This document shows positions 59,052 to 64,000 of a DNA stretch of 64,000 nt, one piece after another (position 1 is the stretch's first letter; each line of letters starts with the position of its first letter). The notes under the pieces were generated by a model, which saw only the letters and a program-made list of their open reading frames with translations, searched no databases and was not told the DNA's origin. Source of the DNA: a virus. The translations under genes were made by a program, and so were the position numbers. Location: positions 1 through 64,000 of the IMG/VR virus record IMGVR_UViG_3300007540_000013. The stretch is one strand, 5' to 3'.

Positions 59052-59830
59052 TATATAAAGGTGCTAATGTTCTGAATGAGCATAAGAAGAAGAAGTTAAT
59101 GTATGATGGTCAATTAGAACAGATTACGTTCTTAGACCGTCGAGTTTACAAAAAGGAAGAAGGAGTTTACTACCCTTCTGTTACTACCGTTTTACAGTAT
59201 ATGCCTAAGAATAAGTTCTTCGATAACTGGTTAAAAGACGTCGGACATAATGCTGATCTTATTATGAGAAAAGCAGCAAACGAAGGTAATGCAGTCCATG
59301 AAGCAGTAGAAGATTTGATTGCAGGTAAAGAGATTACTTGGATGGATGATTTTGGTAATGCAAAATATAACCTTGTAGTATGGAATATGATCTTGAAAGC
59401 AGCAGAGTTTTTCAAGAAGCATAAACCAACTGTAATTGCAGCAGAAGAATTTACATTCTCAGATAAGTTTAAATATGCAGGGACTGCTGATTTAATTGTA
59501 GAGATGGACGGCGAAAGATGGTTACTAGATGTTAAAACTTCGAACAATCTCCACCGTTCCTATGACTTACAGCTAGCAGCATATGCTAAAGCTTGGGAAG
59601 AGATGTTTGGACAGAAGATTGATAGAACCGGTATTTTATGGTTGAAATCCTCTAAGAGATCTGAATCTAAGAAAGAAGGAGTATACCAAGGAAAAGGTTG
59701 GGAGATTAAGCAGATTGATAAGATTGATGAGAACTTTGAACTCTTTAAGACTATCTACAGTCTATATAAGCTCGATAACCCGACTACGGAACCTATTTAT
59801 AATAGTTATCCAACTAAAGTAAAACTATGA
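59048..59830 (+). CDS. PD-(D/E)XK nuclease, RecB-like
   Basis: 260 aa. GTADLIVEMDG (Asp) and WLLDVKTSNN (D-x-K, ~160), followed by YDLQLAAYAKAW, form the RecB-type active site. ATGA overlap with the primase, so it may process replication or recombination intermediates. Second such enzyme in the window (first at 6079); this one lacks the Cys cluster. Confidence 0.85.
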   Translation: MIYKGANVLNEHKKKKLMYDGQLEQITFLDRRVYKKEEGVYYPSVTTVLQYMPKNKFFDNWLKDVGHNADLIMRKAANEGNAVHEAVEDLIAGKEITWMDDFGNAKYNLVVWNMILKAAEFFKKHKPTVIAAEEFTFSDKFKYAGTADLIVEMDGERWLLDVKTSNNLHRSYDLQLAAYAKAWEEMFGQKIDRTGILWLKSSKRSESKKEGVYQGKGWEIKQIDKIDENFELFKTIYSLYKLDNPTTEPIYNSYPTKVKL

Positions 59831-60663
59831 AACTAGCTGAAGCTCTTCTTTACGAAGCTCCTGAAAGCGCAAAAGCCATTATTATGGCCGGCGCTGCTGG
59901 TGCTGGTAAAACGTATCTTGCTAAGTCTGCTGTTATTCCAAACGCTCCCGGATTTAAGTACATGAATCCAGACACTTACATTGAACGTGAACAAGAGCCG
60001 ATGAACCTAACTCAAGCTTCTGCCCAGGTTGATAATAAAGATGTTCCCGCTGCAGTAGACAGCGCTGAAAACTTTATCTGGGATACTACAGCATCTAGTG
60101 CCGCTAAGATGGTAGGCGGGTTGTTCCGTAAGAAACAAGTACCGGGATTACTTAATAATGAGACTTATGATTTCATGATGATAATGGTGTATGCTGACCC
60201 GATGGTATCTTTCTTAAGAAACTTCCAAAGAGAAAGAAGAGTACCTAAGGTAGCAGTTTTATCTACTTGGAATAAAGTTTACGGTAATATTGGAGCATAC
60301 AGTTCAAAATTAGGTAATAACTTTATGATGTATCAAGCACCTGTTCAAGATGCTGAAATCAAAAAAGAAGTAGAAGCTTTCGAAGCTGCTCATAAAGCAG
60401 GTAAGTTAGAAGAGTACTTCACAAACCTACTAGAAAAAGGTGGAGATAAATTCTCATCAAGTTTTAAGAGTGAAGTTCCTGACGAAGAACTATCACCAGA
60501 AGAACTAGAAAAAAGACAGAAGAGTAGAGCTAAAACCCAAGAGCTATTTGAAGCTCAGATTAGAGAGTTAGCTAAACAATTCGGAGCAGTGAAAGGAGAG
60601 GTTGACAAGTATCTAAAATCTGAAGAAGAGATTGCTTCAAGAGTTAAACAGTTTGCAGGGTAA
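59827..60663 (+). CDS. P-loop kinase, zeta-toxin-like
   Basis: 278 aa. IIMAGAAGAGKTYLAKS (P-loop, G22-T29), FKYMNPDTYIE and FIWDTTAS are typical of zeta-toxin-type kinases. The remaining C-terminal half is acidic and helical. In phages, such genes may phosphorylate a sugar-nucleotide or another small molecule. Role here unknown. Confidence 0.75.
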   Translation: MKLAEALLYEAPESAKAIIMAGAAGAGKTYLAKSAVIPNAPGFKYMNPDTYIEREQEPMNLTQASAQVDNKDVPAAVDSAENFIWDTTASSAAKMVGGLFRKKQVPGLLNNETYDFMMIMVYADPMVSFLRNFQRERRVPKVAVLSTWNKVYGNIGAYSSKLGNNFMMYQAPVQDAEIKKEVEAFEAAHKAGKLEEYFTNLLEKGGDKFSSSFKSEVPDEELSPEELEKRQKSRAKTQELFEAQIRELAKQFGAVKGEVDKYLKSEEEIASRVKQFAG

Positions 60664-62837
60664 TGAAAGTAGGAGTAATAGGAGGAGGATTTAAACCACC
60701 ACACAAAGGTCATTACGAGTTAGCAAAACAAGCTTTAGCTCAAGTACCTGATTTAGATAAGATGATTATTTATGTCGGTAAGAACGTTAGAGACGGTATT
60801 GATCAATCTCAATCTGTAGCTATCTGGAATCTATATAAAGATAGCTTAGGTAGCAATGTAGAGATTGTACCTGCTTCAAAAGCACCAATTGGACATATTT
60901 ACTCCTATGCTTCAAATAACCCAGAAGATGAAGTACACTGGTTCTTAGGAGCCAGAGATGAAGAGGATAGAGCTGATATCGCTGATAGAACTTCTTACTT
61001 AGAGAAGAATAGAGAAAAGTATCCTAACTTAAATGTAGAAGTTGTTGAATCAACAGGTACAGATGTAAGCGGTACTGCAGCAAGAAAAGCATTAAGAGCA
61101 GGAGACAAAGAATCGTTCTTTGATTTTATTCCTGATGTAGTAGATAAAGATAAAGTATACGATATTGTGAAGACACCAGAAACTAAAATGGCAGATGCTA
61201 TCGATGAGTTATTTGCTAACTTCATGTATGAAGAACAAGGAGAGGTAGAAGAAATAACAAAAGGATCTCCTGTAGCACCTATTGCAGTACTGCCTTCAGA
61301 ACAAAGACAGAAGCTTCAAAACTATACAAAGATCTTACAAGACGCTCTACCGGATGAATTCGATGTAGAGTATAGACAAGATCATATTAGAGTATCGGTA
61401 CCTTATTTTGATAAAAATAAAAATCATCAAGACGACTGGACTCCTCATCAAACTCAATTACCAGAAGAGGTAGCAGAAGAGACTATCGGGCAATTTAATT
61501 TTGCCCCTTATATTGCTTCAATCTTAGAATACTGTATGACTAAAGGAATGAAAGTTACTCCTATTCCAGAGGTTAAGATTAGACGCGATGAAGAGAACGC
61601 TGCTAACTTATTCGGTAAAACAGGTTACTACCAACCAGATACTCAAGAGATCGTTTTGTATGTAACCGGACGTCATCCTAAGGATGTATTGAGGAGCTTC
61701 TGTCACGAACTTATTCATCACATGCAAAACCTAGAAGGTAGAGCTTTAACTTTCTACACAACTGATGTTCATGCTGATGAAAACCTAAAAGAGATTGAGC
61801 AAGAAGCTCACGCTAAAGGTAGCTTTTTATTTAGAGATTGGGAGAACTCAAACAAAGAACAGGCACCTATTGATGAATCTAATATTGTAGAATCTTTATC
61901 TAGAACACAGAAAGAAGATTTAATAAGACAGGTAATTCGCTTGCAGAGAGATTACGGTGATAATATTGAAAAGATTGCAGCAAGACTAAAACTACCAGCC
62001 AGCCTCAGTAATAAGTTAAGAGCAACCGGAGTAGAGTTCGGTAAAAGATTTGTAGAAGCAGTTTTAGAAGAACAAAAAAAAAGTCTAGAGGAAGGTACTA
62101 AGTACCGTTCTATCGTTGTAGATGTTAGAAAAGCAGTTAACGATGCTTTAAATACTCTTATTAAAGGAGAAAAGCTAGGAGGTTACAACTTACCGGTTAA
62201 GAGAGAGCCTACTGAAGAACATAGAGAATTAGCTAAGCAATACGGGTTTACTCCTCTAGGTCTTATGTTAAACGCTGAATATCAATCTGCATATTTGGGT
62301 ACATTTAAAAGTAAGAGTGAAAAAGGAACACCAACAGAAGTAGGAGTATCGTTAAAGTTTGCCTTATCAGATGAAGTAGAAAAAGGAAAATACCACATAG
62401 ACGGTGAAGCATCAAGTGATGAAGCTGAATTAGACATTATATTAGCATTTAACCCAGAAGACGGGACTAATATGCTACAGCAAATACAGCCTACGTTAAC
62501 CGATCTCATTCGTCACGAGACTGAACATCTAACTCAATCCGGAGAACAGGTTAAGCCTGATAAATGGATGAGAGGTGATCAAGCTAGAAGACAGAAGATC
62601 AGGCAAAACCCAGAATTGTATTATAAGTATTTCTTACTACCTAAAGAAATAGATGCTAACATTCAAGGTTTATATGCTAAGTCTAAATACGAAAAGAATA
62701 GTTTTCAGGATACTGTAGATGCTTACTTAACAGATTTAGTAGGCGATGGGGTTATTACTCAAGCCAACAGTAAGCAGATTTACAATAAATGGAAAACTAG
62801 AGCAGCAGAAATAGGAGGAATCCCAGAGTTAAAATAA
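60663..62837 (+). CDS. Nucleotidyltransferase fused to two zincin-like domains
   Basis: 724 aa. Residues ~1-165: nucleotidyltransferase (GGGFKPPHKGHYELAKQAL with HxGH; VSGTAARKAL as the ISxTxxR-like motif), like NMN or pantetheine adenylyltransferases. Residues ~280-400: FCHELIHHMQNLEG (HExxH, ~348) with downstream EIEQEAHAKG as third-ligand Glu. Helical linker ~415-480. C-terminal: LIRHETEHLTQSG (HExxH, ~618) and LPKEIDANIQGLYAKSKY. Both zincin segments are protease-like; substrates unknown. Three-domain fusions of this kind are unusual. Confidence 0.7.
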   Translation: MKVGVIGGGFKPPHKGHYELAKQALAQVPDLDKMIIYVGKNVRDGIDQSQSVAIWNLYKDSLGSNVEIVPASKAPIGHIYSYASNNPEDEVHWFLGARDEEDRADIADRTSYLEKNREKYPNLNVEVVESTGTDVSGTAARKALRAGDKESFFDFIPDVVDKDKVYDIVKTPETKMADAIDELFANFMYEEQGEVEEITKGSPVAPIAVLPSEQRQKLQNYTKILQDALPDEFDVEYRQDHIRVSVPYFDKNKNHQDDWTPHQTQLPEEVAEETIGQFNFAPYIASILEYCMTKGMKVTPIPEVKIRRDEENAANLFGKTGYYQPDTQEIVLYVTGRHPKDVLRSFCHELIHHMQNLEGRALTFYTTDVHADENLKEIEQEAHAKGSFLFRDWENSNKEQAPIDESNIVESLSRTQKEDLIRQVIRLQRDYGDNIEKIAARLKLPASLSNKLRATGVEFGKRFVEAVLEEQKKSLEEGTKYRSIVVDVRKAVNDALNTLIKGEKLGGYNLPVKREPTEEHRELAKQYGFTPLGLMLNAEYQSAYLGTFKSKSEKGTPTEVGVSLKFALSDEVEKGKYHIDGEASSDEAELDIILAFNPEDGTNMLQQIQPTLTDLIRHETEHLTQSGEQVKPDKWMRGDQARRQKIRQNPELYYKYFLLPKEIDANIQGLYAKSKYEKNSFQDTVDAYLTDLVGDGVITQANSKQIYNKWKTRAAEIGGIPELK

Positions 62838-62838
62838 A

Positions 62839-64000
62839 ATGCAGAAAAGTTTATTAGATTTATTTGAAGTTACTAAAGAGGATATGAATCCTGAATTAAA
62901 GAAGTACCGTCTATATTGCGACATGGACGGAGTACTTTGTGACTTTAAGTATCGTTTCGAATACCTATTTGGTAAAGGTCCTAGAGAGATTGAAGCTGAG
63001 AAAGGAGCACCATACTTCTGGGGAATGATTAGAAGAGTGGGAGCTAAATTCTGGTCAGGTATGCCTTGGACTCCTTCAGGCCGTCAATTATGGTCTGCTA
63101 TCAAAGGATATGAGACTAAACTACTTACTGCACCTCCTCGAGCTTACAGAGACTTCAGTAACTTTGACGAATCAGCAGTTCAAGGAAAAACAGAATGGGC
63201 ACAACGTAACTTAGGGTTAAGTGCTAGTGACGTTTTATTTAAAAGATCAAAAGATAAGCAAGAAATTGCAACTAAGGATATATCAGAAGGATTTATTCCT
63301 ATCTTGATAGATGATAGAATAGATAATATTAACAACTGGAAAGCAGCAGGAGGTATCGGTATACATCATCCGGAGAACACATCTGATATTTCTCCAGTTT
63401 TAGAAAGATTAAGAAAGTTATACAAAGAAGATCCTGCAGACGATACTGAGAAAGAAGTAATTAAAGAGCAGGTAGAGAAAATAAAATTTAAGCAATCTAC
63501 TTTAAACTACAGTACCGTATCTTTAGAACCTTATATTGATAAGGAGACAATGGAAGAGCATTACGGAAGACACTTTAAAGGATATACTGATAAACTCAAC
63601 GCAGAACTAAAAGAGAAAAATATCATCATTGAAGCTGAAGATCAGATTGAAGCTATTCAAAAGATTTTAAGTAAGTACTCTAGTAACGATAAGATTAGAA
63701 ATAACGGCGGCGGATTTTACAACCACGTACTCTACTTTGATAATATGACTCCTACTTACAAAGCACCTTCAGCAAAGTTTAGGAGGTTATTAGAAGAGCA
63801 TTTCGACTCTTTCTCTGAATTCAAACAGCAATTTAAAGACGCTGGATTGAAGCAGTTTGGCTCCGGATGGGTATTCTTAGTAGAAAAAAGAAATAAGTTA
63901 ATTATTGAATCTTACGCTAATCAAGATAATCCTTATTTGGATAATCGATTTAAAGGTACTATCTTATTAGCAATGGATGTATGGGAACACTCATACTATT
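62839..64000 (+). CDS. HAD-like phosphatase fused to Fe/Mn superoxide dismutase (3' partial)
   Basis: 387 codons to the window end, still open. Residues ~24-200: HAD-like domain (LYCDMDGVLCDFKYRF motif I; LLTAPPRAY; ILIDDRIDN motif IV), akin to 5'-nucleotidases. Residues ~229-387: Fe/Mn SOD with LEPYIDKETMEEHYGRHF (metal His ~241), FYNHVLYFDNM (His ~296) and LLAMDVWEHSYY (Asp ~380, His ~384), all four metal ligands present. It would remove superoxide if active; Fe or Mn cannot be told. The fusion with a HAD domain is unexpected. Confidence 0.8.
   Translation, partial: MQKSLLDLFEVTKEDMNPELKKYRLYCDMDGVLCDFKYRFEYLFGKGPREIEAEKGAPYFWGMIRRVGAKFWSGMPWTPSGRQLWSAIKGYETKLLTAPPRAYRDFSNFDESAVQGKTEWAQRNLGLSASDVLFKRSKDKQEIATKDISEGFIPILIDDRIDNINNWKAAGGIGIHHPENTSDISPVLERLRKLYKEDPADDTEKEVIKEQVEKIKFKQSTLNYSTVSLEPYIDKETMEEHYGRHFKGYTDKLNAELKEKNIIIEAEDQIEAIQKILSKYSSNDKIRNNGGGFYNHVLYFDNMTPTYKAPSAKFRRLLEEHFDSFSEFKQQFKDAGLKQFGSGWVFLVEKRNKLIIESYANQDNPYLDNRFKGTILLAMDVWEHSYY

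Follow-up and report, generated by a model that had tools for sequence, protein, structure and literature searches.

A fused phage protein and the question it raises

Why would a phage join a nucleotidyltransferase and two domains with HExxH metal-site motifs in one polypeptide? The question arises from virus record IMGVR_UViG_3300007540_000013 of IMG/VR, whose positions 1 to 64,000 form the window considered here (64,000 nucleotides). The phage is T4-like and related to Flavobacterium phage immuto. A single open reading frame (ORF) at 60663-62837 (+), starting with ATG, encodes 724 amino acids (aa) in which a sequence-only reading had recognized an HxGH nucleotidyltransferase, a HELIH motif with a downstream Glu and a HETEH motif. 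All of these are present in the one chain and are conserved in relatives. The corresponding modules are referred to below as NMNAT (for its likeness to nicotinamide mononucleotide (NMN) adenylyltransferases), ZN1 and ZN2.

Taken together, the protein is probably a polyprotein that this T4-like phage packs into its head as cargo, where the prohead protease cuts it, and whose enzymes are injected. At the level of sequence, the analysis documents the domains and the fact that they are mobile, a setting among head genes, a prohead protease gene and, where ZN2 begins, a conserved site that resembles a protease site; from these we infer packaging, cutting, injection and the enzymatic activities, including that on nicotinamide adenine dinucleotide (NAD), along the following lines. 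The chain would enter the prohead core via internal rather than N-terminal signals, and the S77 (gp21-type) prohead protease would cut it at hydrophobic-x-E sites between the modules during head maturation. The freed enzymes would then pass into the host together with the DNA, where the NMNAT-like enzyme may replenish NAD+, or a dinucleotide analogous to it, in the face of an NAD-depleting defence, and host targets may be cleaved or bound by the metal domains. The role of the zincins would hence be that of cargo and not of processing enzymes.

Relatives and domain shuffling

When the window protein and one protein each of the ZN2, NMNAT and NMNAT-ZN1 type were compared by tblastn with 50,697 phage records, the only named isolate retrieved was Flavobacterium phage immuto, with its four records. 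The immuto homologue (L013 11119-13842) comprises 907 aa and is annotated as NMN adenylyltransferase NadR, an annotation that omits both metal domains. Scanning viral contigs with the whole window protein gave 11 loci, while scans with the individual domains gave 400 relatives for ZN2, at least 579 for ZN1 and 529 for NMNAT, the best 80 of each being kept. A total of 222 full-length ORFs contained one or more of the three domains; some came from loci that overlap on the same contig, and shared 6-mers were used to condense the set to 109 non-redundant ORFs. The sequence-only reading had suggested a search for relatives with the same domain order, and NMNAT-ZN1-ZN2 is indeed found in 21 of the 109, along with NMNAT-ZN1 (29) and NMNAT-ZN2-ZN1 (1). 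Without the other two profiles, ZN2 occurs in 38 ORFs, NMNAT in 15 (nine of them short) and ZN1 in five. As judged by these profiles, the three modules occur fused, separate or reshuffled.

Further modules join this exchange. In three relatives (L004, L010 and L028), a domain with a weak match to RegB endoribonuclease (E values of 4.1e-4, 2.7e-3 and 1.2e-3, all below the family cut-off) is inserted between NMNAT and ZN1, and two others (L181 and L186) show an equally sub-cut-off match to ADP-ribosyltransferases (6.5e-4 and 5.8e-3). The N-terminal region of L181 additionally resembles a Pol-beta-type transferase (E 7.4e-4; 20.3 bits for a cut-off of 21). In L008, only a zincin lies between an exonuclease and a nucleotidase; in L007, a zincin likewise follows the exonuclease, and the contig ends there. 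An ORF of 1614 aa (L238 5935-10779) joins NMNAT, ZN2, superoxide dismutase (Pfam E 9.6e-29), a ZN1-type zincin, a zeta-type kinase (7.1e-10) and a nucleotidase. According to BLAST, its parts recur in four ORFs of the window's record, at 60663, 62839, 59827 and 66142: NMNAT and ZN2 regions match the 724-aa ORF, the dismutase and the nucleotidase match ORF 62839 (76% and 35% identity), the kinase matches ORF 59827 (30%), and ORF 66142 shares 59% identity over 46 residues. The neighbours of the 724-aa ORF thus belong to the same module set.

Putative cleavage sites at the module junctions

In phage T4, gp21 cleaves after L/I-x-E, and short N-terminal propeptides direct proteins into the head (PMC9026906). 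A comparable motif, [LIVM]xEG, precedes ZN2 in 20 of the 22 fused chains, the window version being KSLEE↓GTKY (the arrow marks the putative cut). Across the ZN2 alignment, which includes stand-alone proteins and of whose 55 rows 54 were evaluated at this junction, the boundary column holds E in 54 of 54 rows, P3 is one of L, I, M and V in all 54, and P2 is variable. Counted at this anchor, [LIVM]xE occurs in 53 of the 54 rows ([LI]xE in 39) versus a frequency of 5.6% elsewhere. In the structure model of ZN2, residues 473-477 are the sole segment of at least three residues with a predicted local distance difference test (pLDDT) value below 50, and in a near relative (L003) the linker between ZN1 and ZN2 has been replaced with retention of the hydrophobic-x-E site. 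Further [LI]xE motifs in junction 2 of the window protein end at residues 405, 410 and 470.

Stand-alone ZN2 proteins carry an equivalent site at their N-terminus. After exclusion of three of the 38 ZN2-only ORFs, which are shorter than 245 aa, [LI]xE[GS] was found within the first 40 residues of 33 out of 35 proteins, as in MKLKELILE↓GMYDKL, and the remaining two have VxEG. At the junction of NMNAT and ZN1, where 43 of the 48 rows of the ZN1 alignment were evaluated, [LIVM]xE directly precedes an SSGTP-like anchor in 37 of 43 rows ([LI]xE in 18) versus 25% elsewhere. The VEE↓I of the window protein occupies the position of [VIL]xE↓GSSGTPI in relatives, and its residues 190-207 are predicted with pLDDT below 50. 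In the 1614-aa chain, which was picked as a striking case, [LI]xE lies no more than 45 residues upstream of all seven module starts (p 0.0007 for random placement, p 0.0016 for local shuffling).

Head genes and targeting-like N-termini

The window's record extends to 99 kb, and the head genes follow downstream: a terminase-like ORF (70096; assigned by gene order and similarity to immuto), a T4-type portal (71698), an S77 prohead protease (75809-76387; Pfam E 6.9e-33) and a gp23 capsid protein (77967). The genome therefore encodes a cognate prohead protease, and the 724-aa ORF lies near the late virion genes of a portal-terminase phage. An S77 protease was likewise found in the records of 19 of 23 relatives, which were chosen mostly for their length, and all six portal-bearing records among ten checked possess it. 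Its absence from the other four was considered as a break in the mechanism; the same four also lack a portal gene, and in the two of them that have gp23, this gene is about 4 kb or less from the end of the contig.

Putative targeting sequences were counted as [LI]xE within residues 5-28, random stretches of the same proteins serving as null model (2000 draws). In the head/cargo region of the window's record, 15 of 22 ORFs carry the motif where 5.0 would be expected, a value reached in none of the 2000 draws; the other regions gave 11 of 35 (8.9 expected), 11 of 39 (12.0) and 3 of 12 (1.5). The head/cargo region of immuto is similar with 24 of 32 ORFs (8.0 expected; 0 of 2000 draws), the remaining regions yielding 34 of 141 (42.1), 2 of 11 (1.2) and 4 of 30 (5.0). 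The bounds of these head/cargo regions were set after the N-termini had been seen; to correct for this, every run of matching length was scanned and the maximum compared with that under shuffled gene order. For immuto, the scan maximum was reached in 0 of 5000 shuffles (10 and 4 for runs of 20 and 40).

The NMNAT-like domain and the two metal-site domains

Searched as a single sequence in Pfam, PHROGs and NCBIfam, the whole 724-aa chain gave only weak matches, among them Pfam CTP_transf_like (19.4 bits; cut-off 21) and the putative metallopeptidase family DUF6782 (17.9 bits; cut-off 27). Aligned profiles and structure models were therefore needed to define the modules (Table 1).

Table 1. Modules and junctions of the 724-aa ORF and its two flanking ORFs, in window coordinates.
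Feature	Position (strand)	Residues	Motifs and remarks
Module 1: HIGH-superfamily nucleotidyltransferase, NMNAT-like	60663..61157 (+)	1-165	HKGH 14-17, SGTAAR 136-141
Junction 1	61158..61283 (+)	166-207	predicted helix 172-187, flexible stretch after it, VEE↓I
Module 2 (ZN1): zincin-like metallopeptidase domain	61284..61862 (+)		HELIH 348-352, downstream E379/E381
Junction 2	61863..62093 (+)	401-477	helical linker, KSLEE↓GTKY site ending at E477
Module 3 (ZN2): putative gluzincin-like metal site	62094..62834 (+)		HETEH 618-622 plus E662
P-loop kinase, AAA_33/zeta-toxin-like	59827..60663 (+)		likely cargo gene; targeting-like N-terminus MKLAEALLYE↓A
NT5C-type nucleotidase fused to Fe/Mn superoxide dismutase	62839..64000 (+), to 64131 in record		likely cargo gene; N-terminus MQKSLLDLFE↓V

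The first module contains both the HxGH and the S-G-T-x-x-R motif of the HIGH superfamily. In an alignment of 50 rows (the window and 49 of 65 available relatives), R43, W55 and R141 are invariant, and H14, H17 and T138 are conserved to at least 90%. The corresponding profile has 15 matches in the PDB, of which the top-ranked ten are adenylyltransferases of NMN or nicotinic acid mononucleotide (NaMN). The best of them (E 3.7e-7) is MJ0541, an archaeal NMN adenylyltransferase whose PDB entry itself reads hypothetical protein. Thirteen NCBIfam families of the NMNAT, NadR and NadD type matched at 12.8-25.7 bits, all of them under their cut-offs of 27.7-341, and the domain is therefore named NMNAT-like only. 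A domain search of the chain found no kinase or Nudix domain, and with it no ribosylnicotinamide kinase fused as in NadR.

The likeliest use of this module would be to replenish NAD+ at an early stage of infection. NAD+ synthesis by phages as a countermeasure to NAD-depleting defence is reported in PMC9503650, and the salvage enzymes NadM and NadR of the phages in that paper share with the present domain the HIGH-superfamily adenylyltransferase motifs and the affinity to NMN/NaMN adenylyltransferases that the best PDB matches indicate. The present domain differs from them in that no Nudix or kinase domain was found in its chain, in its sub-cut-off scores and in the scarcity of NadV. A NAD+ salvage operon was also considered, but a complete phage-encoded pathway finds no support, given that the NMN-making partner NadV (PF04095) was found in just two of 20 records, the window's record not being one of them. 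Host NMN or NaMN would hence be required. As a speculation, the adjacent kinase might instead provide a phosphorylated precursor.

For ZN1, the alignment of 48 rows, window included, shows H348, E349 and H352 to be invariant and E379/E381 to be conserved to at least 90%. The model built from these 48 sequences has a predicted template modelling score (pTM) of 0.53 as a whole, with block-mean pLDDT values of 86-98 in the core (residues 280-399), and its order of elements (helix, three strands, HELIH helix, Glu helix) fits a zincin core. Foldseek found nothing at an E value of 0.001, IrrE being ranked first at 0.052. Upon realignment of the model to 980 of the top 1000 Foldseek entries, Wss1 came first (Z 8.4; 4.1 Å over 103 residues), and IrrE was matched with Z 8.1 (3.5 Å over 86 residues). 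These structural likenesses to Wss1/SPRTN and IrrE-type zincins contrast with sequence identities of just 9% and 16%, and comparison of the alignment with PDB sequences gave no match at E values up to 1. The matches that follow these two are mostly zincins. Since these Z values exceed only slightly the 7 to 8 that is the typical best for models without a clear match, ZN1 is accepted as a zincin because the fold family agrees with the invariant motif, more than because of the Z values. The modelling thus supports ZN1 as a zincin-like domain.

ZN2 has a solid metal-binding motif at the sequence level: R617, H618, E619, E621, H622 and E662 are invariant in 55 aligned rows (R-H-E-x-E-H plus Glu), E662 being located within LPKEIDANIQGLY. 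Its model has a mean pLDDT of 86, and its helices and strands are predicted in a sequence that would suit a zincin. The PDB offered no Foldseek match to this model at an E value of 0.001 and no Z of at least 5 among 602 aligned chains; at the sequence level, two PDB matches (E 0.38 and 0.5) were found. In BFVD, two entries matched at the 0.001 threshold, an uncharacterised Caudovirales phage protein (5.6e-9) and an unnamed entry (5.2e-4). The absence of a PDB match does not establish a new fold for ZN2. Of the domains named in the sequence-only reading, which had proposed structure prediction of each part, the nucleotidyltransferase is thus backed by motifs and profile and the first zincin by its model, while the second is a putative zincin, at the level of its motif.

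Weighing the explanations

Several observations weigh against a head-cargo polyprotein. The 724-aa ORF has no [LI]xE in residues 5-28 and hence no N-terminal tag of the T4 type, and the expectation that fused chains would bear one failed more generally, as [LI]xE precedes NMNAT in only four of the 29 fused chains that start with this domain (25 have none). Targeting would consequently have to rely on internal signals. Of the short stand-alone NMNATs, only four out of nine have [LI]xE, although a hydrophobic- or aromatic-x-E motif is found in all nine. In the window's record, the scan maximum was reached in 139 of 5000 shuffles (419 and 58 for runs of 15 and 30), so that the clustering of tag-like N-termini is clear in immuto and moderate in this record alone. 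Deviations from the T4 consensus also occur at the junctions, with M at P3 of the ZN2 site in 10 of 54 rows and V-x-E at junction 1 of the window protein. Linkers of 50 fused ORFs hold 143 sites versus 113 expected, an only modest excess (1 of 300 shuffles), and the depletion of [LI]xE that was looked for inside the modules of these 50 ORFs was not found (270 versus 255 expected). Moreover, aligned rows share descent and their counts are therefore not independent. The rarity of NadV mentioned above speaks against the proposed NAD+ role.

Some of these points would suit a multifunctional enzyme that acts uncut in the infected cell and is located in the late region, the motif being conserved through constraints that folding imposes where ZN2 begins. 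An N-terminal tag is missing from most fused chains, packaging is deduced indirectly, and E-G-x-Y-D is conserved along with the first ZN2 helix, which could make the conservation partly structural. This explanation nevertheless appears quite unlikely, as the hydrophobic-x-E is conserved in the only segment predicted at pLDDT below 50, stays in place where the linker is exchanged in a near relative, and is accompanied by a regional enrichment of tagged N-termini that is strong in immuto. A classical polyvalent protein, whose embedded zincins would themselves cleave the chain and so release the enzymes, be it in the host, in the head or prior to packaging, is unlikely as well. Self-cutting of this kind has been proposed for polyvalent proteins that contain zincins (PMC5512222), and the zincin-like model of ZN1 with its intact motif would be in line with it. 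Yet stand-alone ZN2 proteins, which have nothing to release, bear the same N-terminal hydrophobic-x-E site, ZN2 is missing from 29 of the 51 non-redundant fused chains, and the sites match the specificity of gp21.

The sequence-only reading had envisaged that both metal domains are mainly proteases for the processing of capsid or host proteins, for which the HExxH motifs and the zincin-like ZN1 model could be invoked. We regard this as improbable: a gp21-type head protease is already present in these phages, the modules come and go among related phages unlike an essential head maturation enzyme, and no recognised protease fold emerged for ZN2 in the searches made. What can be retained is the link to the capsid, which the gene context provides; the evidence favours the chain as a cargo that is cut by a gp21-like protease, and not as the processing agent.

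If the head-cargo polyprotein is extended beyond this locus, the case becomes finely balanced and is put forward tentatively. Early anti-defence enzymes may be delivered in this form by a large group of T4-like phages, most of them uncultivated: tagged genes would have become fused, the protease site of the tag would have been kept between the modules, and the prohead protease would serve as a polyprotein protease within the capsid before the mixture is injected. This mixture might comprise an NAD+-forming transferase, a zincin, a metal domain, superoxide dismutase, a kinase and a nucleotidase, to which relatives would add RegB-like and ADP-ribosyltransferase-like modules.

Relation to known systems

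In polyvalent proteins, one to five zincins share a chain with disparate enzymes (PMC5512222), and the coupling of an enzyme with zincins, which the sequence-only reading had called unfamiliar, is therefore not new in itself. The 724-aa chain, with at least two biochemically disparate domains in one polypeptide, shares with them the disparate domains, the zincins (their commonest domain), the late-gene location, the shuffling and the predicted co-injection. In contrast, NadR and adenylyltransferase are absent from the main text of that paper, and zincins are proposed there as processors, whereas the likely cutter here is a gp21-type protease acting at sites that resemble targeting tags. With the internal proteins and Alt of T4, which are cut by gp21 (PMC9026906), the present system has in common the short L/I-x-E tag on relatives and neighbours, the S77 protease and a varied cargo. 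The T4 examples described there carry one cargo per chain, however, while tandem modules with internal sites and no N-terminal tag of their own are found here. S77 proteases and additional zincins also occur in jumbo phages, and the parts of PMC7824862 that describe them contained no mention of prohead-cut cargo chains. The literature searches made likewise gave no title or abstract opening with an account of this architecture or of a prohead-cut enzyme polyprotein.

The feature that sets the present case apart is the link to capsid-targeting-like tags and a gp21-type protease. If true, it would unite capsid targeting sequences with polyvalent proteins and provide a sequence rule for phage head cargo, in which hydrophobic-x-E sites denote module boundaries. 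It would furthermore be a source of many candidate injected anti-defence enzymes, for which immuto is available as an isolated phage.

Neighbouring genes

The two halves of the dismutase in ORF 62839 were matched by Pfam with E values of 9.6e-20 and 9.8e-18. Superoxide dismutase seems unusual as a possible phage head cargo. Further along the record, a series of ORFs at 66142-68300 (L014 6143-8301) has N-termini with one or more LxE or IxE, e.g. EVLAE, and these ORFs possibly represent further head cargo. At the other end of the window, the ORF at 1-1011 starts with repeats of the type GCTDxxSxNYNPLANxDDGSC. In one relative, L015 15640-19006 encodes a collagen-like repeat protein (GTQGTKGVQGPKG) of more than 1100 aa that runs off the end of its record.

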